Part shown: piece by piece, positions 3,261 through 61,100 of the stretch
How positions within the stretch are numbered: position 1 is the stretch's first letter
Layout of the letters: each line of letters begins with the position of its first letter
NCBI GenBank assembly: GCA_030248225.1
Contig: JASANE010009957.1
Location: 1 to 64,000, forward strand
DNA: 64,000 nucleotides
Direction: 5' to 3'
Source: Trileptium ribeirensis
Lineage: Eukaryota > Nematoda > Enoplea > Enoplida > Thoracostomopsidae
Program-made: the position numbers and the translations under genes
Notes under the pieces: model-generated
Databases searched by the model: none
What the model was told of the DNA's origin: nothing
What the model saw: only the letters and a program-made list of their open reading frames with translations

Positions 3261-5229
3261 AGCTAAAATAGAGAATTTTGCAATATTTGTGTTATTTATT
3301 GAAATAGAGTCGTTTCGATCAAACCATTATAGGTTTTTGGGTCGAAGAAGTCAAATATAATATTTTACCAACGATAAAGCCCTATGCAATGTAGTTACAT
3401 GAACATAAAATTGAGTACATTCGTAATGCCACAGCCAAAGTTCCGCTCACAAATGTACTTCCACTACCGACTAGTTTTATGGTATATATACAAACTTCTG
3501 CACTTACTCACGTAACTAATTTTAACTTGGAAATTGTAAACTTGTTTAAAATTTCGTCACGCAGATATTCAAGACATGAAACCGGAACTTTGACTCCGGC
3601 AAAAATTAGCTGTAACCGGGACCGGAATTCTGATTACTCCCTGATGACTATGTATGCTTCGTTAACATGCAATGGCAAAGCGGACTCTAAAGCAGTAAGA
3701 TGGGATTCACAAAAACAATACCATCGTTTATGTACTAACTTCCAGCTTCCAGGAATTACATTACTTACGTACCACCACAATATCCAGCGATGAAATCTAC
3801 AGTATTCATTCGCCAACGTTATCCAATGACAATGACAATTTGTCATTTCGTGTCATACAATAATCTTAACTGAGGACTGAAATATTTAGCGCAATAGTAG
3901 TGATAAAAATATACATAAAATATATATTCAAAAACGGTATAGTTGTATACAATGTCTACTTTAGCATGTCTGTGTAAATACGGCAGTCCGGCTATAACAT
4001 GCTCCTATTAAATTTTCTACTTTTTGCACTAATGGTACAATTTGCACACGAAGCACACTGTATTAGTTAGTAAGCACACCATTATCTGTAAGCCGGTTCT
4101 GTGAAAACCTATTGTTCTCACAGCTAGCTATCTCACTGTATCTCCTCATTAATTAAAAAGTTTCTAAACAATCTGGCCCATAGGTCTTTCGACCTACTCT
4201 CTAAATCCCCCCAGCTCATGCACGCAAGCAAATTTTGACCTCTTCCCAGTTTATTACCCCGCTTCTCCCAGGTATTTTCCTGCGCCACTTAGCTACCAAA
4301 TTTTGTGTGATGGGTTGAAAAATAAGCGAATTTCTATTAGGGTATATAACATTTCCAAATTTTCCGGTATAATTACTATAATCTAACATTTCTAAGTAAG
4401 CAAAATTAAAACCTGTTGCAAATAAAACCATTTTTGAAGTTTTCCGATAGTTACATTATTTTATGGTCCCCAGAATTGGGGTAGCGCCTTTCAAAACCTT
4501 CTAGATTGTACACTTAATAGCGGCAAGTACCGGCACCTACCTTGGCGAGGACATGGTATGTCGGCATGGAATTATGTAAATATATTTCGTATATACTGCT
4601 ATATGTTTATGATTTTAAGTGGGGGTGGGTACTTTGCTGGCTATGACAGCTATTGGTATTATTGGGACGGGAAGTTTCTGCATTCAGATGCGGTTCGTGT
4701 ATGTGGCCAGAAGTATGCCGGAGGGGTATTATTTTTATGGGACACGTGATATGGCTAATGGCAATCACGAGTGTCCGAGCACAGTTCTAGATTCGATATC
4801 CAAGTCTATCAGATACAATCGACCTATGTGCTTTATGCACTCTTTCCGGTTCCAACACGGTATCACAATAGGCTTGTTTAAAACTGTTTCTTATAAAGCA
4901 ATTATTTAGCCACCGGTTAGTATAAAAGCAATATCGATGTGATATAAAATACAGTTGTTTCTGTGCCTCACCTTTATAATATGTTCAACCGAGCTGCAGC
5001 ACTTTTAATGATTTAGGCCTGCTAACGCAACTAATTAATTATTCGGCTAGATAATTTTAATGACGCAACTACTTGCTATGTATTGGCAGGAGTACCCCCG
5101 ATTGCGTACTGACACTGTGGCGTTGATAGATTACCGACTTGCCGCGTTATTTGCTGTATTGCTATGAAATATGAATCATGGATTAAGCTTTGCTACATAT
5201 GTTTTATCTTGTCCAACCCATGCATGATG
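3261..5229. other. Gene-free stretch, no supported feature
   Basis: No exon, RNA gene or complete element can be supported here. A CCGGAAC-type patch occurs at 3575-3640. Open frames of up to about 100 codons near 3480 and 4560-4900 show no recognisable domain, and I found no splice-consistent continuation for them. Unrecognised semaphorin 5' exons could be missed here, since only conserved motifs were searched by eye. Confidence 0.4.
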
Positions 5230-6250
5230 GAACCAAAGGAAGTACCAGTCAAGCTGGATCTACTTGATCACTGGGCCCTTTCGTCAGCTTCTTCCAAGGA
5301 CCATTTACATTTACCGCAATAGTCATCTTCAGAAGCCAATGGTTGAGATTCCTTTTGTGCTCAACGTAATTTGGGTTCATAGCCGCCATAGTCTTCTGGC
5401 CCGTCGCAGAAGTGCTTGAATTCAGTTCAGTTGTACCATTTTGGCCGCTGCGTTGCGCCTCCAGGTTTCAGTTGTAGGATGATAGAAAATTTCACTTCGA
5501 TAAGTCGGTGCATGTGGTCGAATTCAGGAGATAGACACTACTGTAGTGTCCCATTGTGGATTTACACAGATTCTTCATAAGTACTGGTCACTGTTATTAA
5601 GGTTCGCTTTTTCGCTCGCCAATCAAAGAACTGTTTGTGTCTATGTTGGGTTAAGAAGAGTCGCTTTGGCACTTGCTCCCAAGCTGAGGTAACCTTATCG
5701 ATAAGTTGAGGGCACGTATCCTTCGTCTGTGATTGCCGTTAAATATACAAAGATTGGGTTTCCACTGGGTAGATCGGGACCGCCATCATAAAACAGGAAC
5801 AAAGGCGGCTGGCCTGTTGAGGCATATGCTGCTGTTCCATACGCAAAGCAAAGGGGTTCCAGAAATTCGTCCCAGCGATCGGATACTAACTCAGTAGTTG
5901 GCTGCAACAATGCTTTCAGTGTTTGATTTCATCTCTCCATTAATCCGTTAGCTCGGTGGTGGCAGGGCACATTATAATGTTTTTTGGTTCCGATTTGTGC
6001 CAATTCCTTGAAACGATTCGGCCGTGAAGCAAGGATTTTAGTCGATTAAGGTGCCTCGTGGAACTCCGTGTCGACATACAATTTTCAACACAAATAACTT
6101 CTTGATGGTATTTGCAGTTTGATCAGGAACGGGGAACGCTTCGGGCCACTTGGTGAAACAATCCATGAAACTCATGACATATTTGTTGCCAGATTGAACT
6201 GGAAGTAAGAGCCAATTATATTGACGCCAAGCATATGGAAGAGGGCTGCA
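5230..6250 (-). pseudogene. Decayed Ty3/gypsy-type integrase (pol 3' end)
   Basis: Minus-strand translation, allowing stops and frame changes, gives an integrase core. The order is an HMLGVNIIG segment (about 6240-6205), MSFMDCFTKWPEAFPVPD (about 6178-6125) carrying the first Asp, and a GVPRGTLID segment near 6062-6035 carrying the second. An NG.MER segment near 5950 stands at the third acidic position. The longest unbroken piece, 5695-5910, reads WDEFLEPLCFAYGTAAYAST followed by GQPPLFLFY, the usual post-catalytic block of gypsy-like integrases. Downstream to about 5230 there is a weaker frame rich in K/R/W, as in the integrase C-terminus. At least three stops and two frame changes make it non-functional. 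Protease and reverse transcriptase are absent: only about 550 bp separate it from the leader-type array at 6800-7010 on the same strand. Confidence 0.8.
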
Positions 6251-6799
6251 TGTATGTGAACAAAACCCCTACCCAACTTTTCAGCAGGTCGTTTTTAATT
6301 CGTTCATTTTCAAACAACTACCGCTGGGCCTAAACAAAAAATATATTATATAACTGTTGTTTTGTCTGGTTGTTTTTATGACGACTGTCGGAATTAAAAA
6401 GGGTTCGGGATTCGTCACCCAAGAATGTGTAGCTCGAGGTGTGGCCAGTAGAATGCCGGTGGGGAACGAAATGGTCCGTATTCTTATTGCGTGTGCACAT
6501 TTCTTCCAAGCAACGCGATTATATTGAGCGCTGCGGGGTGGCTGCTCTACCCACTCGCGATTCAACTATTTATTAACCAAAGCCGAAGCTAAAAGCGTTT
6601 ATTTAAAATATTGAGAAAACAAGTAAGGCACAATTCTTTAGTACCGTTAAGCTTAGGTCACACCTCTAGTATCACCGGTAAGTGTGATTCAATCCCCAGC
6701 TAGGCCACTCTGAGCAACGTAAATAGCTCTTTCCTTATTCCCTATTAGTGTTTAAGGTTTAGGTTATTTCATTCTTACTAATCCTCTTTTCAGGTTGAT
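6251..6799. other. Deleted interior between integrase and leader array
   Basis: A 94-codon minus-strand frame (6281-6565) lies directly upstream of the integrase remnant but shows no recognisable reverse transcriptase, RNase H or zinc-knuckle motif. No other feature is visible. In a complete gypsy-type element several kilobases of gag-pol would sit here. Confidence 0.35.
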
Positions 6800-7012
6800 G
6801 CAGCACCCCCGGATGGCTGGCAGTAGATGATTATTTAATTGCCTTTACCTGAGCCTTAGAATTACGCTATTAAGTTTGATTATATTAAAGCAGCTATTTC
6901 CGGATGGCTGTTATGCTGCGTTATCCTACGAACTAGGTTGTGGTATTTTAGCACACGATTGTAGTTGACCAGTTTGTCTCACTCAATCCTCGGCGCCCCG
7001 GATGGCTGACGC
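6800..7012 (-). repeat. Leader-type repeat array A (3 units)
   Basis: The plus-strand word CCGGATGGCTG occurs at 6810-6820, 6900-6910 and 6999-7009, spaced about 90-100 bp. On the minus strand the core is CAGCCATCCGG, and the left unit continues GCCAGCCATCCGGGGGTGCT then GCATCAAC. This is very close to the + strand unit at 47501 (GCCAGCCAGTCGAAGGT then GCTGCATCAAC). Upstream of the core, a TAAGGCTCAGG / CAATTAAATAATC block also corresponds to the arrays at 41405-41780 and 47321-47680. It lies on the same strand as, and 5' of, the gypsy integrase remnant. Confidence 0.7.
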
Positions 7013-7807
7013 AACAGGTGGTTATGATGGGATTGTACTGTGGCACCATGTGCGTCGCACAGTAATATTCATACGCATCATTTTGTATTGTACCAGTTTC
7101 TGTTGGTTACACTTGGTTCCATGTGCTCATCGTTTGGAATGTTCCCGCAGGTCGTTGTCACGTACGGGGTTTGCATTCGGTTGTATACATTTAATCTTTG
7201 GGTTGAACAAAATTTTGTTTTCACGCTCGGGACTTGTAGTTGGTTTCATGTGTTCACCGTTTGATATGCACCGGATCGTTCTTTATTTGCACCGGTTCGC
7301 TCTTGAATTGCACCGAATTGTTCTGATTTGTTCGGGACTTTTTTTAATTCGTTTCGATTGGGTATCGGTTTGTGTTTTGTAGCGGTAGCGTTTTATTAGT
7401 GTCGATTAGGTATTGATTTTCATCGCATTCGTTGCAATTAGTTTAGAATTGTTCCAAATTTACGTTGGGTTGTATTTGGGTCGCACCGTAATTTAACCAG
7501 TTTTTGCCAGAGTTTTGGTTTTATTAAAGAAACCTTAGAAATTTAATTTTTTCAAGTACTAGAAAGTATAATTAAACAAATTTAAATCTTTTTTAGGTTC
7601 GATTTTCGGCTAATTACTCTTATTATAATATGTCTGTGAACGCGAACATCGGGCAACAACGACTACGTGAACTTTCAAAATTCCAATGTGAAAATCTACG
7701 CCGTATTCTTCGTACTACAAACAATTATACTGAACATGCCATAAAATTGGTATTCAAATAGGTCGAAAAAACCTAATAACCAGTTATTTAATATGAAATC
7801 CCGGAAA
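7013..7807. other. T/G-rich gene-free stretch
   Basis: The plus strand is strongly T/G-biased with recurring TTCGTTT, CACCGG and ATTCG words, and its hydrophobic 126-codon frame (7002-7382) is likely a product of that bias. A small open frame at 7630-7761 begins ATGTCTGTGAACGCG and encodes 43 residues (MSVNANIGQQRLREL start). No homology is recognised and it is not called a gene. Confidence 0.35.
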
Positions 7808-18222: not shown

Positions 18223-19285
18223 GTATGTCTACTGCTAAGATTATGGATGTTAAATTTGTTTTAGAGAAAATAATCTGGGACTTTAGCTGAATTTTGAAAA
18301 CAACCATTGTTAATGAAGAAATGTAAAATATTCTTGTATTTCTTACTGCTCAGACTTGCATATGTTATAATTAAACGGAACATTCGGGACACTCAAGCAT
18401 AGACGTTTCTATTACAAATGGATAGCACATAGCAGCGCAGTATAAACGGAGGCGGTGCCGTAATTGAAAAATGGAAAATGATAACGATAATAAATTGAAA
18501 TGACGAAATTTCATATTGGATATAAAACTGTACTACAATAGCGTACAACTTAGTTAACAGACACGGAATTGTCATTTACAAGTCACTGGCAGATATAGCT
18601 CGTCTGAAAGGGGGCGGGGTCTACGGACCTACAAAGTGTATCACTTGTTAGCCAAATCTAGGCAATTTTCATTCCATTTTAAACCCGTAGGGCGAAATAT
18701 TAGTGTCTGCTTAATATTGAATCACTATGCTCATAAAAATGGAAAATGAAATTTAACCATTCACGCCTTTTATGTATGAGATAGATCGAAAGCCCACTTC
18801 ATTGGCACCCAAAAAGTTTTTTAAGTCCTAGTCCAATGTCGAGGGGGGGGTTGGCCCGGTTGCACCTCACCTTATATCCGACCTTGATTGTACGTGATAC
18901 ACAACGTAACTTGCAGCGTGCACGTTATAATGTCACCACTGTTTGGAACTTTTGTACGGCTGCAGTCGTAACTCTGCCGATCAGACAATCATGATCGCAC
19001 TCATACAGTAATTCATTTCCTGGTGGTTTACGATACATCTTTATGCACAACATTTATTGTTTACTGTTTCGCATATACCTTTGGCTATAATTTTTCGGAC
19101 ACCTTCCTTAGCTATTGTGGTGTATTATTCAGTTGCATAGTTAGATTTTGAAAATATCAATATAACCCTGACCATATTCTGAACATGGAACTGAAGGAGG
19201 AACTGAACACTAATAATCGGTATAAACTTATTGCTGATAAATACACGATTATAAATAAGTTATGCTATATAAAATATTATTTCAG
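18223..19285 (+). other. Semaphorin intron with repeat family IV
   Basis: A phase-1 intron. Bases about 18885-19140 resemble 24245-24460: GCACGTTATAATGT, CTGTTTGGAACTTTT, (G)CTG(C/T)AGTCG.AAC, GATCA/TAAATCA-TTTC and TTAGCTA. This is a small repeat family with both copies inside this gene. G-rich patches occur at 18608-18630 and 18840-18860. No exon is recognised. Confidence 0.6.
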
Positions 19286-19721
19286 AAAACGGTGAAGTTC
19301 ATAAGATCGTTCGAATTCCTGTCCTACCTGACACATCTGGTTCGACTACAACAAGCTTCAGCTCTTCACACGTTGCTACGAAATCAACTCTTATCGAGAC
19401 CATCGTTGTATTTAACGAAACATCCATTGCTAAGTCGTCTATTGAATTGACTAAGCATAAACGGCATTCAGGGCTGGTTTACCAAAGCCGTGCAATAGTA
19501 AATATTATGGTTGTTAGATATCGGCCCAAACTTAATAAATCCTCAAATGCCAACATGGACGAACGAAAATTGGTGGTTGTTAGCCGGGATACAATCGCTA
19601 GTTTACCGCTCAATAATTGTCCTACTGATCCTCAAATATCGTGCAGTGATTGTGTTACGCTAAGGGATCCGTATTGCGCATGGAATGTCGACACGAAGCA
19701 GTGCGTTGGAAAGTCGTCAGG
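19286..19721 (+). CDS. Sema1a: Semaphorin-1a exon (end of sema domain plus PSI domain)
   Basis: The largest ectodomain exon (436 bp), with acceptor ATATTATTTCAG and donor TCAGG|GTAAGG. It enters in phase 1 (completing Glu) and leaves in phase 2. It begins NGEVHKIVRIPV, the last propeller strand after the GT-E-N-G turn. It then has a Ser/Thr-rich loop and TLIETIVVFNETSI with one NET sequon, followed by KLVVVSRDTIASLPL. The PSI domain follows: NNCPTDPQISCSDCVTLRDP and YCAWNVDTKQCVG, with the C..C..C..DPYCAW.....C cysteine pattern intact. The PSI domain is the small cystine knot that follows the propeller and orients it to the stalk. Confidence 0.95.
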
Positions 19722-20769
19722 GTAAGGAATGAGCATAATTTCAGTTTGAAATTTAGTGAGTTTTAGTTGTAAACTGAAATTTTAATTTTGATATACCTTA
19801 GCGATGAATGTTTCCATGCGTTTTTCAAGGTTATATAATATATTTTTATAATTTTTATTGAAAAAGCGTGCGAATTTGGCATATATACAGCCATCAGCAT
19901 ATAAGATGAGTATAATTTCAGTTTGAAATTTACTGATTTTAGATGTAGACTGAAATTAATTTTGCAGTGAATTACTTCATTTGTTTTTCAAGGTTGTATA
20001 ATATATTTGACCGATTTTGTAAAAGAAAAGTGTGCAAATTTGGTATATAAGCAATCATCAGCGTATAGAATGAAGATAATTTCAATTTTAGGTTTAGTCT
20101 TTTTATTTGTAAGAGGACACTTCGTAGTTTGTAGTTCGAGATTCATAGAAAAACATGCAAATTTTGTTCACAAACACAACAGATGAGCTACGTTTTACTC
20201 TAGTATTTTCGTTCACCGGCGGGCACATGTTTGCAAAAGGCAAATATTAGCTAAATTATTACGCAAAAATTTAGTACTGTACAGTCTCGTTAGAGCTTGG
20301 TGAAATTCATTTTTTCACAGCGGCCTGTTTCATAAATTCCGCAGATTAACAAGCTAATTGCATAACTATCACAGATAAAATTTAAGTCTCGGAAGTTGTG
20401 ACCCAGTCATTGTTTGAGAGCGAGCGACATGCGACGAAGTATAATTTCTCCGTAACTAAGGTTATAAGTTATGTTCGTCAGAAATACTTGCACCCAGAAT
20501 TCATGACTAAAAAGCACCAAAAACTGTTTTTTTAAATGAAACAACGTAACATCAGTCATCATAGTATTTCGTTGAAATTTCATCATGAAACACGTCAACT
20601 ATTTATTAAATATGTATGTGGGTGCTGTAAACAGTGACAATATGCAATATAGCAAAGATTGAAATATTGCTATTTAGGTGCTCAAAGGTAGTAATGATAG
20701 TAAATAAAGATTCATGGTTTAGTTTTTCACCATCTGGTTTTTATGATATGTATATATTTTTCTTATCAG
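19722..20769 (+). other. Semaphorin intron with tandem duplication
   Basis: A phase-2 intron. Bases 19728-20095 contain a tandem repeat of about 2.2 units, described separately. The rest is AT-rich with no exon recognised. Confidence 0.6.
19728..20095 (+). repeat. Intronic tandem repeat, about 160-180 bp unit
   Basis: The unit begins ATAATTTCAGTTTGAAATTT, continues with GTAAACTGAAATT / GTAGACTGAAATT, TTTTTCAAGGTTRTATAATA, and GTGCRAATTTGGYATATA, and ends with AGC.ATCAGC.TATA. The order occurs in full from about 19735 and again from about 19911, and starts a third time near 20072. The AAATTTCAGTTT/AAACTGAAATT words within each unit are themselves inverted. Confidence 0.75.
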
Positions 20770-28245: not shown

Positions 28246-28769
28246 AAGCATGTATTGTCATGACTATTCCAGAAATGCAGTAGTTGGTGTCATACTTGGT
28301 ATGTTCAATCTCAAAAGACAGCCGTTGCTCCAAATGATTTCAAAATATCTTTTAGAACGCCAGACTTTGACTTGCTTAGCCGTCTCATGTCTGAAAAAAT
28401 AAATTAATTAGATCCGAATTCTATATGAGTATCATATATAACCGGTTGTGCTTTTAAGCAATTGACGGTTGATTTAATTAATCGAATCGTTATATTAATT
28501 ACGTAAAAGTGAGAAAACTGCTCATATATCCGACCAGGAATTGTGTGTCGCAAAAGCAGATGTTCTAAAAACTCTAGAGCATCACCGCGGTGTATCAGAG
28601 TTTTGTACTGCATGGTATTTAGTACTCAAGCATCAATAGCCACTTGTACTGTCTTTTAGAGGACACAAGGCACTGAATGCCAAATAGAATTTTTTTATAT
28701 ATAAATCAAGTCAAATACAATAGCCACCTTGTTATTTTCTACAGCTTCAACAAGCAACTCAGTCTGAAG

Positions 28770-30141
28770 TTAGCGTGCATAATGTTCCATTCTTGCCAGT
28801 TTTTTAGTAATTGTACTTTCATTCATACGTCCTGTCTAAAAGCATGTCTGAAGTTTGTGAGTATAACTTTCCATTTTGGTACGTTTACTAGCGATCACAC
28901 TGTCATTCATGGGCCTTGTCTAAATCCATGTCTGAAGTTTGTGACTATAATGTTCCGGTGTGTTTCATTCACTAGTGTTCACATTATCACTCATTTTTCT
29001 TGTCTAAAAGGTCTATAAGCATTTCTAAATTTTGTGAGTATAACCTTGTATTATGACACGTTTACTATGAATCATACTTTCATTCATGTTTCCTATCTAA
29101 AAGCATGTCTGAAGTTTATGAGCATACTGTTCCATAGTGAGTTGTTTGCTATAAATCACACGATTGTTCATGCACCTTGTCTAAAAAGTGTCTGAATATT
29201 GTGAGTATAACATTTCATTGTGGGTCGTCTGTTAGTAATTGCACTTTCATCCATGCGTCGTGCCTAAAAGCATGTCTGAACTTTGTGTGTGTAACGTTCC
29301 ATTTTGGTTCGTTTACGAGCGATCACACTGTCATTCAAGCGCCTTGTCTAAATGCATGTCTGAAGTTTATGACTATAATGTTCCGTCGTGGTTCATTCAC
29401 TAGTGATCACACTTTCATTCATGCGTATTGTCTAAACGGTCTAAAAGCATATCTGCTTCTGAAGTATAGAAGTTTCAGAGTATAACGTTGTATTGTGATA
29501 CGTTTATTTTGAATTATACTTTTATTCATGTGTCGTTTCTAAAACTATATCTGAAGTTTGTGAGCATAACCTTCCATTGTGGGTCGTTTGTGACGAATCA
29601 TACTATCATTCGTGCGTCCTGTCTAAAAGCATGTCTGAAATTTGTGAGTATAACGTTCCGTTGTGGGTCGTTGAATTAAGAATAATACTTTTATTCATGT
29701 GTCCTGTCTAAAAGCATGTCTGAAATTTGTGAGCATCACGCTCCATTGTGGGTCGTTTATTAGTTATCGCACTTTCAGTGATGCGTCCTGTCTAAAAGCC
29801 TGAAAGCATGTTTGTAGTTTGTGCGCTTAAAGTTCCATTGTGATTCATTTATTAAGGATCATACTTTCATTCACGCGTCCTATCCAAAAGCATGTCATAA
29901 ACTAGTGACTATAATGTTCCATTGGGGGCCGTTTGCTAAGGATAACACTGTCATTCATGCTTCTTATCTAACAGCATATCCGAAGTTTGCGAGTATAACG
30001 TTCCATTGTGCTTCGTATATTAAGAATCATACTTTCATTCATCCGTTTTGTGTAAAAGCAGCATGTGTGAAGTTTGTTCGTATGACGTTCCATTGTGGTT
30101 CGTTTATTAAAAATCATACTTTCATTCATGCCTCCTAAAAC
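28770..30141 (+). repeat. 84-bp satellite array with 5-unit higher-order period
   Basis: There are sixteen units of about 84 bp. The pattern is TTCCATTGTGGGTCGTTTA, (C)TAGTGATCACACTTTCATTC, ATGCGTCCTGTCTAAAAGCA, TGTCTGAAGTTTGTGAGTAT and AACG. Unit starts lie near 28785, 28868, 28952, 29047, 29130, 29213, 29296, 29380, 29488, 29571, 29656, 29740, 29834, 29917, 30000 and 30089. Units 1-5 pair one-to-one with units 6-10 by private variants (for example GGTACGTTTACTAGCGATCA at unit 2 against GGTTCGTTTACGAGCGATCA at unit 7), at an offset of 428 bp rising to 441 bp. The unit is divisible by three and one frame stays open, so long frames at 28677-29018, 29177-29485, 29488-29679 and 29821-30138 all spell the same 28-residue unit. 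Confidence 0.92.
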
Positions 30142-36895: not shown

Positions 36896-37740
36896 TGTTG
36901 GGATATCAGGGGGCCTCAACAATGCTGAGGGGTAGCTGCGTGGTATAAAAAGAACTGTCCCAGCTCGGAGGCGGGACCAGTCGAGTCGTTTGCTCGTAAA
37001 GTTCGGTTGGTTTTGGCGGTTGTCGCCATTGTTGGTTTCTCTCCCGCTTTTGTCTTGTTTTTCGGCTTTTCGTTTCGCCCGGGGAGCTTTTCGGCATGCA
37101 GCCGTGCGGAAGAGACCCGCCCGGGGTTTTCCGATACTTTTAAACTTTTGCTCGAGTTCAGGACCAGGGGCAGCCCTTGCGGGTGCTGGGACGTCCGTTG
37201 GATGCCTCGCGCTCCCGTAAGTGCTGCGCCCGCGCTGGGATGTGGGTTGAGCCTCGGACAAATTGTAATCAAAATCATGCCAAAATTGCAACAAAAAATG
37301 GAAGGTACCCTCGTTCTCGACTGGTTCCCCACCCCCTGGGTTGATTTTATCGTTCATGCTCAGGGGGTGAATTGTTCCGTGCACTATAACGTGTTGCGTT
37401 GTTGTTTGATGGCACATCGCTAAATTTCGGAGTAGGCGTTTTCTATCAGCAGTGTCTCTGGGTTAAATTGACTCAAGCGATCGTCAGGCGAACTTTTAAA
37501 TAAAAGAATTCTAGTGCCGCATCCTGGAAGTTATTGTTGTCTCGGGTGGACTCCTCGACAGCGGACGCGTGGAGGAGTTCCACCCGAGGTTCCTCCCAGA
37601 GTTCCAAAATTTTCATGTGTAGATCTAGAAATAGGGGCAGCCCTTGTGGGTGCTGGGGCGTCCGCCGGATGCCTCGCGCCCCCGTAAGTGCTGCGCCCGC
37701 GCTCCTGCGGTGCAGTCAGACAAATTAGCAAATTTCTAGG
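36896..37740 (+). repeat. LTR/promoter-like segment with internal direct repeat
   Basis: A TATA-like GGTATAAAAAGAACTG at 36941-36956 is followed by a GC-rich block. An 80-bp segment, GGGGCAGCCCTTGCGGGTGC ... CCCGTAAGTGCTGCGCCCGC, at about 37166-37243 recurs at about 37635-37712 with few changes, 469 bp apart. Both copies keep a CCCGTAAGTGC donor-like word. AATAAAAGAATTCTAGTGCC at 37499-37518 resembles AAATAAAAAGATCTAGTGTA at 45039, suggesting a shared retroelement 3' processing region. The long frames across it in both strands reflect GC content. Confidence 0.45.
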
Positions 37741-40490: not shown

Positions 40491-41404
40491 ATTACATTTT
40501 GCCCCATGAGGTTTAGCTTGGCCGAGCCGTCTATGAAACCTAAAAGATTACTTACGTTTTTAAAGTCATAGTTTATATTTCGGGATATTTTACATAGCTA
40601 GTATCCTTTACCTCAATATTGGACGATGGTTGATTTTTGGCGAAATTGGAATAACTGTCTGGGGTTTAGTAAGTGTAAGGGGTTTACCAGGCTACCGGGA
40701 GGGTTCACGGTCCGAACCCGCTCCAAATCCCTAAAATTTCGTAAAAACCTGGGTTTATCACTTTTTCATCTATTATATCCCTCCGTCCCTTCTGCGTCCG
40801 TGTGTTTTAGTTTTTCTTGTTTTCGCATTTTGTTTTGTTTTAAAGCTAATTTGCGTAATTAGCATTATTTTCGTTTAGTAGCTAACATGTTAGCTTCTCT
40901 TTAGTTTTCTGATTTCAGTCTTAGACGAACTTTCGCAGAGTAGGGTAGCACGCCCACGCATCGTTATCGATCCGCTTGAATTATACGTCATAGTTTTGGA
41001 TTTTTTTGGTTGTCAGTTTTTGACTAAGTTAATCGCCAGGCGAACTACTAGTTCTGGGTTTCTTGCCATTATTTAATGTTTGATTGGAATTACCTAGCTA
41101 CTACGCTACGTTGCTTTTGAACTTCAACTGAAGTTTGAGTTTATATATGTGAACCGGCTTTGGTTTTGACTTTTGCGGATCTGATAGATGAATGCTAAAC
41201 GTAAGTGAACCGCTGCTGCTCATCTGGTTATGGGGATAGCAACAAGTCTAACCCAACTTTGCAATCATTAACGTTGAGCTTACGGTACTACACAAATAGG
41301 CATTTACTAAATTATTAATTTACTTTATTCCTACTATATTTCCGAATTAAACTTGAGAGAGAGCAAGAGCGTTAATTAATAATAACCGTACTCGAATTAA
41401 CACG
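40491..41404 (+). other. Upstream part of leader region B
   Basis: Non-coding. It contains TTAGCTAACATGTTAGCTTC at 40877 (compare TTATTAGCTAACCTATGCTT at 46594, in the same relative position before array C) and AATCGCCAGGCGAACTACTA at 41030 (compare CGATCGTCAGGCGAACTTTT at 37480). These parallels suggest the 5' ends of related LTR elements, but no matching pair of LTRs was found. Confidence 0.4.
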
Positions 41405-41790
41405 CGCTTAGCTGATCCGTCCGGCAGCAGGAACGTTAACATAAGAAACGTAAATAGTATAATTCTAAGACCTTAGGATAAAGTAATCAAATAAACGTAC
41501 GAGTCAATCCGTCCGGCGGGTACGTACCAACCCAAAAGGGAAGGTTATAAATATTAATTACTCAGGATCTATCAGTGATCCGTCCGGCACTGGTAGCTCT
41601 AAGGAAACTAAGTAGTGTAATTCTAAGGAAGAGGTTAAGGTACTCAGATAAACGTGCGAGTTGATCCGTCCGGCGACTACGTACCAACCTCAAAAGAGGA
41701 AAGCATAATGAAGTACCATTGTAAATCTAAGACACCGGTAAGGTATTCAAATAAACGTGCGGGCTGATCTGTCCGGCAGTCTCGTACAAA
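41405..41790 (+). repeat. Leader-type repeat array B (5 units)
   Basis: The core TGATCCGTCCGGC or a one- or two-base variant lies at 41413-41425, 41505-41517, 41576-41588, 41662-41674 and 41765-41777 (spacing 92, 71, 86 and 103). Alternate units are led by AATCAAATAAACGTACGAG-like sequence and followed by GTACGTACCAACC-like sequence. The unit order TAAGACCTTAGGATAAAGTA ATCAAATAAACGTACGAG then core aligns with array C (TAAGGTCTAGGTTGAGATAA TCAAGTAATTGTGCAGTG then core). Confidence 0.8.
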
Positions 41791-42254
41791 CCTCACAAGA
41801 GTGTTGGGGTTGGTGCCTTTTCACACCTAAAATTTTTCAATTTCTATTTACAACACTGGGGCCGGCCTCCACTCCCGCCTTAGTATTCCCTGTCGTCCTC
41901 GGCATGGAATATGAGCGTATAATTGCGTAAAGTCTAAATATAACCTGTTACGTTAACCTAACTACTAGCTATGTATTTAACTCTAAATATATAAAATATA
42001 TTAAACCTCTATAAATCTCAAAATTCCCCCCTACCATCATATCTCCCAAAACCCAAATTTTATACATATATACTTAAAAACCTCTTAAAACTTATTCTTT
42101 CCTAAACACCCTATTTCCTAACACATATTTCATATTCACCCACCCTCTTTTACTATAAGTAAAATTACACCAAATTTCATTTTTTCTCCCTTTCCTACTT
42201 TTTCAACCAAAATTCGGCACTCTTGGGTTGGGGGGAAAAATCAGGGAATCGTCG
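41791..42254. other. Pyrimidine/AT-rich gene-free stretch
   Basis: The stretch consists of C- and T-rich words interspersed with AAATATA and has no gene. Its composition resembles 43740-44100. Confidence 0.35.
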
Positions 42255-42600
42255 TACAGCGATGATTTGGTACCATTCGACTCAGCTCGACGAGGCGAGT
42301 TCAACGGTACCAAATTTGACCATATTCCAACAACTTTGAAATTTTTCAAATTTTGCCCTCAGTACTAAGGGGGACCCGGTACTTTGAAAAATCGAGAAAA
42401 AATTTTTATGAGCAAAATAGACATAAGTAGCATAGATACACGCAGAATGACGAGACAAATTCAACCGTTCCTTATTTATCATGATATTTTCACTCTTTAG
42501 CTAGTTATGGCTGAAAAACCATTTTTGAACTACTGAGCTCCACGAGAAGACTTCAACGATATAAAATGTTACCATATTCAAAATATATTTCTTAACTTTT
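42255..42600. repeat. Inverted GGTACC element and decayed direct copy
   Basis: TTTGGTACCATTCGACTCAG at 42266 and CGAGTTCAACGGTACCAAAT at 42295 form an imperfect hairpin around GCTCGACGAGG. A decayed second copy (GAACTACTGAGCTCCACGAG AAGACTTCAACGATATAAAA ... TTACCATATTC) starts near 42525. GACCATATTCCAACAACTTT near 42317 corresponds to TACCATATTCAAAATATATT in the second. Confidence 0.55.
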
Positions 42601-42674
42601 AGGCTAATTTCAATAATATATTAACTAATCACATTAAATATAGTAATGGCTGCCCGCGGACGCCCAACAAATAA

Positions 42675-42929
42675 AAGATTTATTGCAGATATCTTCATGC
42701 AACGGTCAATCATCACAACCGCCTGTTCGTTAACCCAGACAACGTCCATGCCCACACCCAGAACATCGATGGCCTCTGGGGAACCCTTAAGAGCTTCATG
42801 ATGCGTCGACAAGGCATACCCGACACATTGTTCCACCGTACTTTGATCGAGTTTCAGTGGCGCCGCCGTTTCTCCCACAACATCCTCGGAGCTGTAGTGG
42901 GCCAAATTCGGGATCATCATCCTTTTTAA
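42675..42929 (+). pseudogene. Merlin / IS1016-type transposase C-terminal fragment
   Basis: The plus frame from after an in-frame TAA (42672-42674) to TAA 42927-42929 encodes 84 residues. It contains ATVNHHNRLFVNPDNVHAHT then QNIDGLWGTLKSFMMRRQGI, LIEFQWRRRFSHN and a short tail ending IRDHHPF. The TVNH....V.P....HTQ.I..LW..LK...RR pattern and the E/QWR.RF tail are diagnostic of ISXO2/IS1016-like transposases (eukaryotic Merlin elements). The acidic residue after HTQNI is Asp rather than the usual Glu. The N-terminal two-thirds with the first two catalytic acids is not found upstream, so this is a fragment. The 99-codon minus-strand frame over it is a shadow. Confidence 0.8.
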
Positions 42930-42959
42930 TTGTAAGTTGTTATAATTTACGTTGCAATA

Positions 42960-43095
42960 TAAATGTTAGACTAAGCCTAAGCCTAAGCCTTAGACTAAGA
43001 CTAAGCCTAAGTCTTAGACTAAGCCTGAGCCTTATACTAAGCCTAAGCCGGGGGGCTCCGCCCCCCCGGACCCCCCGTACTAAGCTGTTCTCCCA
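42960..43095 (+). repeat. Telomere-like (TAAGCC)n tract with GC hairpin
   Basis: About 14 imperfect six-base units (TAAGCC, TTAGAC, TAAGAC) run from 42967 to 43050, followed by GGGGGGCTCCGCCCCCCC, GGACCCCCCGTACTAAG and CTGTTCT. On the minus strand the units read GGCTTA, a rotation of TTAGGC, the nematode telomere repeat. The same GC hairpin and CTAAGCTGTTCT end occur in the other copies, so it is a dispersed element rather than a captured telomere. Confidence 0.75.
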
Positions 43096-44100
43096 CTAAA
43101 CCTAATCACGATATGACCAATGAAAAAATCCATCCATTTAAACGCATAAGAATTTCATTTAAAAATATCAGTTTTCGCTTGCATTGAAAGTATCGGGCTC
43201 CATATGTCGTTACCCTGACTACCTACGGACGTACCATACACCGTTCGATAGCGCATGGGATCTTCTATTTTATGTCCAAACTTGAGCCAAATCGGTCCAT
43301 TCAATAAAAAGTTATGGTAAAAAATGTAAAAAAACCCAAAATCCATATTTTTAAAAAAAATTCCGACCCCTCAAATTAGGGCCCCTTGCTGAAGCCTCCT
43401 TAAGAGTTAGAGCCCTGAAACCTTCTCCATTGGAAAGAGCGGGAAAAATTACCCCCCGGGGGGTTAGGGGCGGGGAGAATCTTAAAGCGAAGCTTTAGGA
43501 AAAAAATTGCCAGAAAAGCCTCCATATCCCCCAAAAATCCGAATAAAAGAATGTTGAATCAGCATATCGGAGGTTATACCTGAAAAGGGGTGACCCTGAT
43601 CTCGAAGAGATCGGTTTTGGGGGTGAGAGATGATTGGGGGTCCAGACAATATGGGGGCTATACCTGAAAAGATGGTGGGCCCCTTCCCTGATTTTTCCCC
43701 CCAAGCCAAGGAGGGCCCAAAATTCAAACCCCTCCATCTCACCCAAAATTAAATCAATCTCCCTAAAATTTTCATATTTTTTCCCTGACTACCCCTATTC
43801 ATATATCTAATCTACCCCTTCCCCTCTCTCTACTTTTCATAAATTTCATTTTTTTATTAGAATCCCATTTGTCCACATTTTTCAAATACCTTCCATTTTT
43901 CCAAAACTTATTCCCTACTTCTCATATTTCTAGTACAAACTTCCCTACCTACCCCCATGACTATATTAAAATTTTACCACCCATCTCCCACTACTTTTTC
44001 CAAACCACCCTTCCTTCTTTCACCCCATTTTCCTAATTTGTTTTTAAATTTTCATTTAATTTCTTTAAATACATATTATATATATTAAAAATATAATATA
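43096..44100. other. Gene-free, homopurine/homopyrimidine-biased stretch
   Basis: Bases 43430-43760 contain G- and A-run words on the plus strand and open minus-strand frames produced by that bias. A near-duplicate GGTTATACCTGAAAAGGGGT (43569) / GGCTATACCTGAAAAGATGG (43656) lies 87 bp apart. Bases 43740-44060 are strongly pyrimidine-rich (TTTCC/CCCTA words). No gene is recognised. Confidence 0.4.
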
Positions 44101-46620
44101 TTTTGTTGTGGCAATGTGTAGTACAGTACGGGGTACTGTTTGTCGGCGCCTGAACGGCGATGTGACTATTCACAACTATTTTACTTGTGTTTGGTATTGA
44201 ATTTGGATTATTATGTTGTGGATGATTATGTTTTGAATTAGTTAGTTGGTGACCTAGCTAGGTGGGGGACGGAGTAGTAGTCAATATTACGAGTTGTTTT
44301 ATTTGGTATGCAGTGGTTGTCTAGTGCGCGAGTTGCGTTTGTATGTCAACGAGTTTTGGTTATTTGAAATATTTTTTATGTTTGAATCTCAAATTATGAG
44401 AGACATTTCCTTTAGAAGGTTCCTAGCTAGCGTTTTACAACGTACACTTATATTCGTTATATATCGCATAGTTGTAATGTACAAATTTTGTAATATCGAT
44501 GTGTCTTGGTTATTAGATGAGGATTATTAGGAGAGTTAATTTTAATGTGTTGTGAATGATATTAGCGGTTTCCCTGAAGACTACTGCGTGTTATTCTAGC
44601 GTGTAGAGAGTGCTTCGTCACGTTTTAAAGTGTTTGGTAGAACTGCGAAGTGTTGATAATGTATCGTCATCAATTGCATTCAGTATTACGTTAGTTACGA
44701 GTACATTTTCTTAACGACTTTATGCGAGTTTTTCTCGGGTTTAACCTCATCATTCAGTAATGGCATGTCATAGCTATAGCTCGTTCAGGGGTTAAACAGG
44801 ACGACAAATTAATATTTACGTTGATTGCTGCTATTTGTTACCTAAAGTGGTATATGTACGCGGAACGGTGAACATTAGCGTTGAGATTAAATTAACGATA
44901 GTTTATCGACTTATTCGGCTCAGGAGAGTAGTATCTATTAATCTACGTAGCATCGTGTGTCGTACCTGCATATGGACCAACTGAATTATTAGTAGTGAGG
45001 AATTTTCGCTATACAGTGTTGTTTAACGGAACAGACTTTCAAATAAAAAGATCTAGTGTACGATGATTAATTTTCCAATTTGGGCAGTGAGTCTATCTGA
45101 TCCCCGAGTCGTTTCTGGTGTCGATTCAACTGCATCTGGGTTTCTACGTGATATTACGTCTACGAAAATTCAATTGCGTGAGAGCAGTTCGAAAGTGATC
45201 AACCGTGAAGCCATCAAAGTGATCTGCTTGGTATACGGATTTTCCGGTTGGTAAACGTGTCGTGTAATACTTGTGTTTTATTAGTGTTATTGGTATACAA
45301 GCGGAGTGCCATATTGCATAGGAGTTTCGATTCTGAACTCAAGAGGGCTAATGCTTTAGTTGAACGCACACCCGTTTACCCGCGTTGTTTTTACGAGAAC
45401 CAGTGAAATCGACTTAGTCGTCGAAGGTCTCAGCGCGAATTGGCACTTCGCGGGAATAACGAATAAATAATTACTACTATTCGGCTGTTGTTGGTATTTC
45501 GAAAAGAGCGTAATAAAGCTACATCGGTGGGTGCTGAGCAGTTAAAATCGTCGAAGCAATTCTAAAACAGGAGACACTAGGATTTATTTATCACCACTTC
45601 CCTGGTACGCCAGACCACGAACTTGCGCACCCCAACTGCTAGCGTGTAGGATTGTATATGGTGGCCAAAATTGTAATAAGATTCTAACTGTGTATTATAG
45701 TAGTTGCTGGGGGTTGGAGGAGCGTCGCGTAAGCACGAAGCTACACCACCGTCGAAAAATAGTAAGCTCCGACAAAGAGGACTTGGTAATACATACCCTA
45801 AATTAAAGTATTAGATAACTTACTCAGGATAATTGTGCGCTCAAATCTGAGATGGAGAAATAGCAAGGCTCACTCAACAAAGAGCAAAGTGAAATGGATC
45901 GAGTCTAAACTAAAATCTAACGGTGCTTTACAACTGAATGGCAAAGTTCTTCGTACTCGACAAGTCCTAAGTGGCAAAATTATTCAAGAGCAATATTGTC
46001 TGAGAGAAGCTTTAGTGGTGTTTCTCTGGCACGAGTGGTGAAAAGATCCGTATTTAACCAGGCATAGGCGGCTTACTTGGAAGCGTACTAAATAACGGGA
46101 ACAGAACCGGTGTACAAATAAGATTGGCGTGTTATACTAACTGTTGAATATACATTCTAGCTTCGGCTGTGTTGATTTTATATCAGAACCAAAACCTGAG
46201 CTAATCGAACTAGTCACGCCGCAACGCCAAATAAATTAGGGCACGAGAAATAAAGTATACGCGCGCCAAGGAAAGACAGTACAATTCCCCACCGGCGTAC
46301 TACTGGCCACGCGTACCTACCGCACATCTTCGAGTCAAGAATCCCGCCCCAATTTAATAATCCGATAGCCGCCATAATAAATCATAGTCCACCCCTACCC
46401 CCATAAAAACTCTATAAAATAACAGTAAGCTACCGAAGTCCCAAGTTCCAAAAATTGACAAAATTTATTTCAAAACTAATTTCTTTGTTATACGTTTCTC
46501 CAACTATTTTAAACTATAAAATTCTAAAATTTAAAAACTTACTAAAATTTTCTTGTTTACTTATTTTATTTGCATATTTTCCACTCGTTTTGTTTATTAG
46601 CTAACCTATGCTTAATAGTC
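44101..46620 (+). other. Gene-free retroelement-like untranslated region
   Basis: T/G-rich at first. CGGCGCCTGAACGGCGATG at 44144 partly resembles a tRNA-Lys-type primer-binding site. AACAGACTTTCAAATAAAAA GATCTAGTG lies near 45030. Short open frames at 45063-45254 and 45835-46041 have no recognised domain. No gene can be supported. Confidence 0.3.
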
Positions 46621-47320
46621 TTGAGTTTTAGTTTTCAGTTGCTGATTTTGATTTGTTGAGTCTGGTGTGATTTTACCGAGATTATCGGGCAGTGTAACGA
46701 ACTACACGATTTATCTGTGTTATATATAGTTATTTTTGTATCTAGGCGACATAGCTACTCAATTATTGGTAGCTTGCCAGTTAACGGTGCTGCGGTTTAT
46801 ATTCGAATTATTTAGTGAGGCATTGTGTCAAAACTTATTTTTAACGCTACGAATTTGGTTTTACGTGCTTTTTCGAATATCTGGAGTAACGGCGCAAAGA
46901 ATTGCCTATATCCTTTACGACTGTAGAGTTTTGGTTTTTTGGAGTTGATTTTGCAATTAGAGCTAAAGAAGGAGTGAAGGCAGCTTCCAGGTGATATAGT
47001 TAAGTACCTTAACCTTGTTAATAATTAATCTCAGTAATATTAGGTTCTTATAAAAACGAAGTGGCATAAGTTATTAACAGGAGCGTTAATATAATAACGA
47101 ATATGAGTTAGTAATATATATAATTTAGCCCCTTGTGTCGAGTGAGAAAGCCAGGACGAGAATATGAAGTGGGATATTTGGGTAGTAATGCGACTTGTTG
47201 GATCAGCAGATGAACGGTGCGGCTCAACAAGAAATCCTATTCTTGAGAAGACCGGGTGAGTAAGGGGTGTGGAACCGAATTACTTTATCGAGCACCACCT
47301 TATCCCAAATCGTCTGATAA
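46621..47320 (+). other. Upstream part of leader region C
   Basis: Non-coding. It follows TTATTAGCTAACCTATGCTT and TTGAGTTTTAGTTTTCAGTT, which parallel 40877-40920 before array B. A 70-codon frame (46736-46948) has no recognised domain. Confidence 0.35.
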
Positions 47321-47680
47321 GCCAGCCAGTCGGGGGCTTGTCTTTTTAGAAAAGTTCGACTGAATAGTAGTCGACCGCTACTACGCAGTAATATTTAACG
47401 TAGTCTGCCAGCCAGTCGAGGACAGCATGTGTAATATAACCGGCAAGTATTAGCGTAAACCTAAGGTCTAGGTTGAGATAATCAAGTAATTGTGCAGTGT
47501 GCCAGCCAGTCGAAGGTATTGCTGCATCAACTCACAAAAGCAGTATTACATTAGTAGCTAACTTAAACGTAACGAACTATCGCTCAAACCGTAACACAGT
47601 AAATAAATAACGTATTAGTTTAAAGGTAAGAATTTGGGGTCAGGTACTTAGTTACTTGTACAGTTACCAGCCAGTCGGGG
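47321..47680 (+). repeat. Leader-type repeat array C (4 units)
   Basis: The core GCCAGCCAGTCG lies at 47321-47332, 47407-47418 and 47501-47512, with ACCAGCCAGTCG at 47666-47677 (spacing 86, 94 and 165, so one unit may have decayed). Lead-in GATAATCAAGTAATTGTGCA and tail AAGGTATTGCTGCATCAACT around the third unit match array A and, less closely, array B. Confidence 0.8.
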
Positions 47681-48420
47681 GTAGTTGTGTGTTACGGGGT
47701 AAGGCAATACGATTGTACACCTCGTAATATGAGCATATATTTACAAATACTATTGGTATTAGGGTCACAATACATGAACAAAGTCTATACAGTGGGATGA
47801 ATGGGCAAGGTTAAACGTTGGTTCCTCGAATTCCGAATAGAATGTCCACAGCCGTATTTATCTCCTCGATTCTAACAAATGCTGTGGTGGCGGGTGAGCT
47901 TACCTTACTATACGGACTTTAGGGATCGGGCAAAAATGGATCGCGCGATATAATTAACCGGGCGTCAATGGAAAACTAGTCACTCCATAATAACAATAAT
48001 AAAACAAAATACCATTTGGCTGGTGCAGGCAAGCTGAATGCGGCTAACAAACACGAAAAGGTTAGACGGAGGGTCGAGGTTTGCTCCAGGGATACGAATA
48101 TTAAAATGTGATTCGACTACACCTATCCTACTCTACAATAAGTCGAATACAGTGGCAAAATATATAGGTACATAATACAACTACTAAACGTAATAAATTA
48201 CAAAAAGTGAGCGGAGGAATAGTCAAAGAATATTATATTTTATTTATGTATACATGTATTTTAACTAAATAATCAATTTATAAAGTATCACAGTTTAGAC
48301 ATTTGATGTCAAATCCATCTTACAAAAAGCTAGCTATGTAAAAAAATGCAAATTAATTAGTAATATCACCCGATTATTTAATTAATTACTAATTAGTAAA
48401 CACGATAAAATCATAAAGGC
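47681..48420. other. Gene-free stretch after array C
   Basis: No gag or pol frame follows the array. An imperfect symmetry ATTCCGAATAGAATGTCCAC AGCC / GATTCTAACAAATGCTGTGG occurs near 47830-47890. AT-rich afterwards. Confidence 0.35.
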
Positions 48421-53125: not shown

Positions 53126-53790
53126 AGCAGGAAATTACCGGAACCTTGTGTTCGAAGCTTATATAAAACAAATGAAGGAAGAAATGAAGGTACTGTGCTT
53201 TTAAAATGTAATAAAAATAAATTTTACATTAAACTTAATGTATTGCGATGATATTATTGCCTCTCTGGGACTTTGAAGACGCTGAGGAAACCAAAATACT
53301 TATCGATCAAGATGATGTTTTTTGTACTCCCAGCGGAAAATTGCTTCGCTGTAAAGGCTTGCGTAAACTGTGTCAAACTGAATGTTCTTTGAACGCATGG
53401 AGCGTAGACAAGGCAATTTCGCTTTGACTTCAACCACCTCCCTTTTCTAGACATAAGTTTGTTACGTGTTATTCCGAAATTTGAAATTATTGGTTTAAAT
53501 GGGTATAAAAGACTATAAAAGGTATACTATAATTTTTGAACAATGGTCGGACACATTGTTCAGGCTAGCGTTAGGCAACCGCGGTCCCTCAGCTAGATGA
53601 AGGCGCTGACTTTCTGATCAAAATGCTATATATAAATGAGACAAACTGTGATACTGCTTGCACAGTTTCAATAAATGTGTTTAATTATCAAGAATACAAT
53701 TTCTGGCTGCGTTGCACATATGTTACTTTACTTAAATGATAGGCTGATGTACTAAGTTTAAAAGCGCACTGGCTTGTGCTTGACGCAATT
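53126..53790 (+). repeat. Dispersed repeat family III, copy 2
   Basis: The same ordered words as copy 1: ACCGGAACCTTGTGTTCGAA, GGAAGAAATGAAGGTACTG, ATTTTACATTAAACTTAATG TATTG, GGGACTTTGAAGACGCTGAG, GGCTTGCGTAAACTGTGTCA, TATACTATAATTTTTGAACA, CTGATCAAAATGCTA, and TGGCTGCGTTGCACATATGT TACTTTACTT. Confidence 0.75.
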
Positions 53791-60239: not shown

Positions 60240-61100
60240 GAAGCAATCTTTGATGTCCTGTTTCAATAATAAGCTTATAAATTAACGAAGGCTAAAGCGT
60301 GACGCACATTTTATAATGTACATATAGAAATCCTCTACATTTGCTGCAATGGGAATTATTATGTTTTCGCGTCAAGCACCAGCCAGTGCGCTAGTAAACT
60401 TTGTAAGTCAGTCTACATTGAAGTAAAGTAACATGTCTGCAACGCAGCCAGAAACTGCGTTCTTGGCAATGAACCGTTTTTATTGAAACTGCGCGAGCCT
60501 TATAACAGTTTGCCTCATTTATAGCATTCTGATCAGAAAGTTATCATCATTATCATCTAGCTGACGGGCACTGATTGTCCAATGGTAGCCTAAACAATAT
60601 GTCCACTGATCAGAAAATTATAGTATACATTCTTTTATTTTCTTTTAGAACCAAATATATATACCAATAATTTCAAGTTGCCCACATAATAACATGCATC
60701 AACCGTATTGTAGTAAAGGCAGGCGATTGCGGACATAGTGAAAGTGTTTAGTCCACGCTTCATGCAAGCATGTGTAGTTACAAGCACATTCAGTTTGACG
60801 CAATTTACGCAAGCTGTATATTAGAAGGCATTTTTGCTCTGGGGGTCCAAAAACCAACATATTGATCGATAAATAAAAACTATTTGCTTACTTAGTATCT
60901 TCAAAGTTCCAGGAAGGCAATAATGTCATCCCAATACATTAAGTTTAATGGAAAAGTTATTTTTAATACATTGTAAATCAACTGTAGCTTCATTTCTTCC
61001 TTTATCTGTTTTATTATATATATATAAGTTTCGAAGACCAAATTCCGGATCCGGTTTAAATGAACGGTTCCGGTTATTCCTTGATATATATATATGTAAT
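60240..61100 (-). repeat. Dispersed repeat family III, copy 3 (most complete)
   Basis: Reading on the minus strand from 61100: AACCGGAACCGTTCATTTAA ACCGGATCCGGAATTTGG, AAGGAAGAAATGAAGC, TTAAACTTAATGTATTGGGA, GGAACTTTGAAGATA, GCTTGCGTAAATTGCGTCAA ACTGAATGTG, TATACTATAATTTTCTGATC AGTGGACATATTGTTTAGGC TACC, CTGATCAGAATGCTATAAAT GAGG, TTCTGGCTGCGTTGCAGACA TGTTACTTTACTTC and CGCACTGGCTGGTGCTTGAC GC. It appears complete relative to copies 1 and 2. Confidence 0.75.

Follow-up and report, generated by a model that had tools for sequence, protein, structure and literature searches.

Repeated RNA hairpins whose loops change in concert within long terminal repeats of a degenerate Ty3/Gypsy family in the nematode Trileptium ribeirensis

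The MS2-type operator, the site of a coat protein, combines a bulged A, two base pairs and a tetraloop ANYA. Multiple packaging signals in RNA phages of this type are described in the accessible parts of two sources (PMC4836477, PMC6281560). Among retroelements, Cer1 of Caenorhabditis elegans encodes its own RNA-export protein, CERV; in the accessible part of its description (PMC10309623) the term 'stem-loop' is absent and 'hairpin' occurs once, within a protein name. Here we analyse 64,000 nucleotides from Trileptium ribeirensis (GenBank assembly GCA_030248225.1, contig JASANE010009957.1, positions 1 to 64,000; hereafter the window), which carry three arrays of short hairpins, A, B and C. All three derive from long terminal repeats (LTRs) of one degenerate Ty3/Gypsy family, of which they are old fragments. 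We cautiously favour the view that the repeated hairpins are read by a single RNA-binding factor acting in trans, probably encoded by the element, through which the genomic RNA is packaged or exported.

A first reading of the window from its sequence alone (the sequence-only reading) had described three arrays of a roughly 90-bp unit. All three were recovered: A on the minus strand with three cores, B on the plus strand with five, and C on the plus strand with four (within the window). The core GCCAGCCANYCGG has six matches in the window at up to one mismatch, against 0.14 expected, and none of 100 shuffles reached six. Across the 687-Mb genome the exact core occurs 407 + 364 = 771 times, the reversed pattern 26 + 35 = 61 times. 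Array B has a different core, ATCCGTCCGGC, a misfit to GCCAGCCANYCGG. Its kinship was addressed with a covariance model, R1, trained on 24 hairpins that include cores A3, C3 and C4 and none of array B: the model recovers three of the five array B hairpins (E 2.4e-5, 4.1e-5 and 2.7e-4), and we therefore take array B as a relative of A and C. The hairpins of the window are the following.

6998..7010, minus strand: core A1, loop ATCC; single fold z +0.47
6900..6912, minus strand: core A2, loop ATCC, degenerate flank (AACAGCCATCCGG); single fold z -0.42
6809..6821, minus strand: core A3, a hairpin of the fourth or fifth type, with loop ATCC; single fold z +1.01; row of the R1 training set
41405..41790, plus strand: array B, five AU-bulge hairpins with a GUCC loop (fifth: CUGUCCGG); cores at 41411, 41503, 41574, 41660 and 41763
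47321..47333, plus strand: core C1 (hairpin H2), loop AGTC; single fold z -1.91, with 8 of 200 shuffles equally good
47407..47419, plus strand: core C2 (hairpin H3), loop AGTC; by core pattern and fold
47501..47513, plus strand: core C3, loop AGTC; by core pattern and fold; row of the R1 training set
47666..47678, plus strand: core C4, loop AGTC; by core pattern and fold; row of the R1 training set

Further copies were fetched from the first 100 listed places of the 771 exact cores, places with at least two exact cores being taken first. In 25 of 30 fetched loci, at least two LTR landmarks of a common layout lie on a single strand. The order is fixed: hairpins H1 to H5 with plain hairpin-like motifs between them, often AATAAACATT, then a block that we call b2. 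AATAAACATT was found exactly in 10 cases, and in 8 of these it stands 135-140 bases ahead of the next block. Three of the 30 loci have no array (L023, L024 and L025, the last overlapping L024 and left out of the loop-agreement analysis below); in L033 and L034 the covariance model found hairpins, with fewer than two landmarks. Loci L001-L008 entered only into the covariance model search. The three arrays are thus real, but the idea of one copied 90-bp unit does not hold: spacing varies from 71 to 165 bp, and different hairpins follow one another in a fixed order.

Comparison of the copies identifies the core as the head of a hairpin, in which the inner pairs are followed by a bulge with AG facing G, then by two C-G pairs and an RNYC tetraloop (CC-RNYC-GG). 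Hairpins of the array B type have an AU bulge and a GUCC loop instead. Among the 79 of 99 core matches retained for an energy test, hairpins with their own flanks average -7.98, with swapped flanks -5.86 (best of 20 swaps, -6.45). The stem of H1 (14 rows) has 88.9% of cells paired, against 33-61% when slid, and 15 cells with double-sided changes, against 6.4 in shuffles (0 of 500 as high). For H4/H5 (24 rows), 88.1% of cells are paired, against 35-55% when slid, and the covariation score is 0.340 against 0.203 (0 of 500 shuffles). Of 586 cells, 112 contain G-U (121 in shuffles) and 14 contain A-C (27 in shuffles). The shortage of A-C, reached in 0 and 11 of 500 shuffles, agrees with a sense-strand RNA. 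The suggestion that the arrays are structured-RNA sites, for which fold and covariation had to be checked, is upheld by these covarying stems.

The same evidence bears on the notion that the repeats act as DNA, either as protein sites of an insulator or as a plain satellite, to which we give hardly any credence. A conserved core in periodic sites and the tandem clusters would suit it, but the stems of H1 and H4/H5 covary, and the hairpins keep their order inside LTRs with TG...CA ends, on one strand in the 25 loci with two or more landmarks. In the Drosophila gypsy insulator, Su(Hw) sites are conserved duplex DNA sites without stem covariation; the parallel drawn to it by the sequence-only reading, a comparison with a DNA-binding array, finds no support in the covarying stems seen here.

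Other searches for structure gave little. A whole-LTR fold (RNAalifold, 27-row alignment) yielded a single hairpin, and the conserved fold of A1 consisted of three pairs without covariation. Rfam had no match above the gathering score in the window; in L027, L031 and L032 it gave one weak sub-threshold match (L027), outside the hairpins. No tRNA or known RNA family was found.

A further regularity lies in the loops, which tend to agree within an LTR. For 29 LTRs with at least two RNYC cores, drawn from 33 clusters, loop letters agree in 57 of 101 pairs within one LTR, against 426 of 3813 pairs between LTRs; none of 2000 permutations reaches 57 (maximum 24). Loops are fully uniform in 13 of the 29. 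Array C, whose cores fail the strict pattern, lies outside this set; all four of its loops read AGTC. Adjoining LTRs of one locus carry different loops in L011, L013, L018, L027 and L036, and the unit of change is therefore the LTR.

Such identity within an LTR could in principle arise without selection, if hairpins exchanged short tracts through gene conversion or template switching. Repeats less than 1 kb apart can exchange, and two hairpins of the LTR at L010 1951-3169 do have more than the loop in common. The 28-base stem flanks, with a similarity of 0.369 within LTRs and 0.372 between them, would nonetheless require that the tracts stop at the loop, which makes this account very improbable.

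Loop classes also change along the family tree. A core-masked tree of 27 LTRs needs at least seven loop-class changes among 22 labelled rows (five rows have no clear class, and L026_4074 was labelled on a tie). A clade with support 100/100 unites L032, L012, L036 and L031, each with ATTC on three or four hairpins; nested in it, with support 96/99, a group of L010, L027, L016 and L028 carries ATCC. Elsewhere, L027_5741 (GTCC) is sister to L011_4222 (ATCC), with support 98/93. Together with the agreement within LTRs, the masked tree supports a presumed recognition site that switches: its loop letters vary by lineage.

This turnover is hard to reconcile with a host factor acting in RNA export, translation or stability, bound as by the constitutive transport element of simple retroviruses, in which loops are repeated. 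Several hairpins with the same loop in a long untranslated region would fit such a role, and retroviral RNA elements that work through host factors exist, according to the accessible part of one source (PMC8579622). A conserved host factor should keep the loop fixed, yet the 22 labelled LTRs of this single genome require no fewer than seven changes, and we hold this explanation unlikely.

In the reading that we favour, with a trans-acting and element-encoded partner, the hairpins would probably be transcribed within the R region, which would put them both in the leader of the genomic RNA and close to its 3' end. We place them there because a TCAGTY-like candidate start site lies upstream, some 0.3 kb from the LTR start, and AATAAACATT downstream; of nine aligned LTR starts, five have the TCAGTY-like motif, which might instead serve as a splice acceptor. 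All hairpins of one RNA would act jointly as sites for one trans partner, for which the Gag nucleocapsid, or an export protein like CERV of Cer1, are candidates. Binding would allow the genomic RNA to be selectively packaged or exported. When the partner's preference shifts, the loops would follow, giving the concerted change observed within one LTR; the pattern is seen in the copies, and this cause would account for it. We prefer an element-encoded partner in view of the rapid turnover of the code between copies of a single genome.

The loops might alternatively pair with RNA: by kissing between hairpins or molecules, with a guide RNA, or with a complement elsewhere. A single complementary site would yield a two-base code that changes in step. 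We consider this improbable, as most loop classes lack self-complementarity and the loops' own complements are not clearly enriched in or around 23 LTRs (five flank forms, in cis only; a trans guide was not searched for). Complements of own and other loops per LTR were 0.087 and 0.080, 0.043 and 0.029, 0.478 and 0.319, 0.217 and 0.341, and 0.174 and 0.348, respectively.

The protein-partner reading has a bolder extension, which we hold possible rather than probable: the loops could form an address code, in which at least seven classes coexist in one family, each read on its own RNA by its own protein, so that related RNAs are sorted, with an architecture like that of the MS2 operator that arose independently. 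If this were true, related elements would sort their RNAs from one another. More generally, the signals that distinguish retroelement RNAs from cellular RNA are short and difficult to recognise. Loops that change in step make a natural experiment, in which code, lineages and, once it is identified, the partner protein could be matched within one genome, and both RNA-protein co-evolution and cross-packaging between related elements would become testable. Degenerate LTRs can moreover preserve a readable record of RNA structure.

Several observations weigh against a structured, concertedly changing signal. Mixed loops occur in other LTRs (L014, L019, L020, L026, L030 and L035), the H1 loop deviates in four LTRs, at its second base only (L010 and L016 with ACCC, L013 twice), and some odd loops are chance matches to AGCCNNNNGG. 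Covariation is patchy, some stem pairs being at chance; in a register slipped by -1, two pairs also reach 0 of 300; the 'further pair types' of H1 are equalled by 89 of 500 shuffles; and most of the imbalance between G-U and A-C comes from the make-up of the columns. Finally, single folds of the 12 window hairpins have z between -1.91 and +1.01, four of them on the wrong side of 0. Such unremarkable folds are to be expected because the copies are old, and the structural evidence is comparative.

The carrier of the hairpins is an LTR of 1.6-2.0 kb, present mostly in solo or tandem copies. Its conserved stretch ends in a sharp edge at ...ATAACA, behind which the sequences of different copies are unrelated. 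Nine starts, picked by eye from 16 pattern hits, resemble TGTYGGGGGTCC (TGTYGG) and have further sequence in common, so that TG...CA ends are found as common starts and ends. Two of 23 placed ends show 5-bp duplications, in L018 (1605 bp) and L026 (1628 bp), the upstream copy preceding TGTCGG. Since chance alone should give around two matches of 5 bp, exact duplications by themselves are near chance level, and it is the agreement of the starts that carries the weight for LTR nature. In tandem arrangements the next LTR begins 5 bases (L026) or 4 bases (L032) past the preceding end. A free-standing tandem non-coding RNA gene, also considered, was dropped once LTR-type ends and duplications emerged.

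Coding remnants connect the LTRs to Ty3/Gypsy elements. Downstream of the LTR in L022, a weak reverse transcriptase (RT) piece (PF00078, E 0.092) is followed by RNase H (PF17919, E 5.2e-18); further along the same element, in L041, lies an integrase H2C2 domain (PF17921, E 4.3e-12), and RT, RNase H and integrase follow one another in the Gypsy order. The remnants of L022/L041 set the family apart from non-coding LTR elements (terminal-repeat retrotransposons in miniature, TRIM, and large retrotransposon derivatives, LARD). A weak protease piece (E 0.12) was seen in L042, beyond the LTR of L013. L012, L013 and L022 share sequence behind the LTR, with TGG at the expected place of the primer site in one of the three, which leaves the primer site uncertain. 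No second LTR was found in L041 (up to the contig end) or L042, and no two-LTR copy among 32 stretches fetched by place. The pieces of the family in the window are listed below.

6355..7018, minus strand: LTR A, a fragment (3' part of the LTR) with three cores and the 3' end ...acaaaacaaca; window stretches 6370-6910 (62.5%) and 6755-7018 (67.9%) resemble LTRs of L013
6373..6466, minus strand: block b2, strongly conserved in comparison with other copies, near the 3' end of LTR A (probably U5)
5716..6240, minus strand: Gypsy integrase remnant, 87 bp past the end of LTR A, with open pieces at 6038-6268 and 5695-5928; rve E 0.0012, short of the curated cut-off
7045..7376, minus strand: stretch resembling the gag-side internal region of L013; 61% to L013 875-1201
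4594..4729, minus strand: b2 block of a further degenerate LTR; 64-71% to L010, L022, L014 and others
40674..41801, plus strand: 5' part of LTR B, carrying array B; 67.5% to L012 2343-3396
41802..45776, no strand assigned: LTR B interrupted by an insertion of some 3975 bp; L012 2343-3396 and 3382-3740 are contiguous, their window counterparts 4 kb apart
45777..46424, plus strand: 3' part of LTR B, with b2 at 46289 and the end ...aaaataaca at 46424; 75% and 71% to L012 3382-3587 and 3547-3740
46426..47689, plus strand: LTR C, immediately behind LTR B, its 3' end region missing and no b2 seen; 68.2% match with L026 5792-7089, minus strand

Arrays B and C accordingly belong to two adjoining LTRs, a tandem pair of which the first is split by the insertion of about 4 kb. 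The window's integrase pieces share 72% of 29 amino acids and 57% of 56 with the integrase of the L022/L041 element (64% at the DNA level). The proposed link to Gypsy-type retroelements is thereby borne out, through LTR starts and ends, RT, RNase H and integrase pieces, and a window integrase of the same family. Two finer points of the sequence-only reading find no support: the arrays were placed between LTR and gag, whereas the hairpins sit inside the LTR; and array A was seen as the leader of the adjoining integrase, whereas LTR A is a partial copy lying between two other pieces of its family, one resembling the gag region and the other an integrase.

Conservation across the LTR was gauged on 27 copies. 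Mean identity is 0.859 at the constant loop positions, 0.694 in the outer stem arms and 0.73 over all columns, with equally conserved blocks elsewhere: b2 at 0.885 and the block behind H1 at 0.881. The cores are thus better conserved than neighbouring spacers, as had been claimed, yet they are not the most conserved part of the LTR. The sample was drawn through exact cores, which somewhat favours them; the pattern by which units were picked fixes some core letters, and the 27-LTR identities are the better gauge. Block b2 (6373-6466, 46285-46424 and 4594-4729) is among the most conserved LTR parts and has no clear fold. It may be U5 bearing priming or integration sites; a coding role was rejected in view of one- and two-base indels between copies. 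A search for relatives in viral contigs returned two contigs with a two-core pattern, none with the b2 word, and a best model E of 0.25, taken as chance.

Other observations on the family concern its upstream part and its neighbours. A second hairpin series lies upstream in the LTR, with a common loop CCTATACTCGG and stems such as GGAAG/CTTCC and GGAAAC/GTTTCC; it is seen at L010 3711-3801 and also in L012, L015, L016, L018, L027, L028, L031, L036 and L038. With at most one mismatch allowed, L009-L038 contain 24 matches to this loop, of which a few are due to chance; none is clear in the window. At L010 1951-3169, a family LTR lacks any RNYC core, and two of its hairpins have another loop and flank in common. 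In L018, positions 751-2640 show an LTR split by another element, 751-2474 matching L041 4050-2337. An unrelated repeat at L032 224-905 and L014 2378-3102 (87% alike) adjoins the hairpin LTR in L032.

Within the window, repeats of about 21 bp occur in the gag-side stretch at 7045-7376, with a 21-bp tandem repeat at 7267-7324. Within the insertion at 41802-45776 there is a stretch rich in C, together with a degenerate repeat of GCCTAA type (42971-43049) that resembles the nematode telomere unit. Outside the family, an array of satellite type, its units about 84 and 169 bp long, lies at 28762-30137. A semaphorin exon at 19273-19725 has a plexin repeat (E 2.1e-6) and, among solved structures, Drosophila Semaphorin-1A as its best relative; a protein database search gave no match at E 1e-5. 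A dispersed repeat family (2144-2765, 53138-53786 and 60369-61087; 71-83% alike) is also present in L041. A 71-bp repeat at 37166-37236 and 37633-37703 (93% alike) falls within the G+C-richest stretch of the window.

The retroelement itself is ordinary; its hairpin series with a switching loop is, as far as our literature search goes, undescribed. No description of a hairpin series of this sort in LTRs was found by title or abstract start in the open PMC literature, where sequences are not searchable. Yeast Ty3 (PMC11381356) and C. elegans Cer1 (PMC10309623) are relatives at the family level with structured genomic RNA, whereas the accessible parts of these sources mention no repeated hairpin series or loop code. 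Cassandra, a TRIM (PMC7215508, accessible part), likewise has a structured RNA sequence inside the LTR and tandem LTR arrays; it differs in carrying 5S RNA and no coding sequence, whereas some hairpin-LTR copies have coding internal regions. The SPRE-like elements of mammals (PMC8579622) are also an RNA element common to many endogenous copies; in the accessible part of that source they are three specific motifs of vertebrate retroviruses, without a hairpin series and switching loop. Closest in form are the packaging hairpins of MS2 type, with which the hairpins of the window have in common a stem, a bulge, two pairs and a tetraloop with a pyrimidine in third place, as well as many dispersed sites per RNA. 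The pairs are C-G here instead of G-C, the loop RNYC ends in C, and the bulge is AG/G or AU. We claim no homology. The bulged A and ANYA loop of the MS2 operator are not those of these hairpins, for which no coat protein is known, but the architecture is alike.

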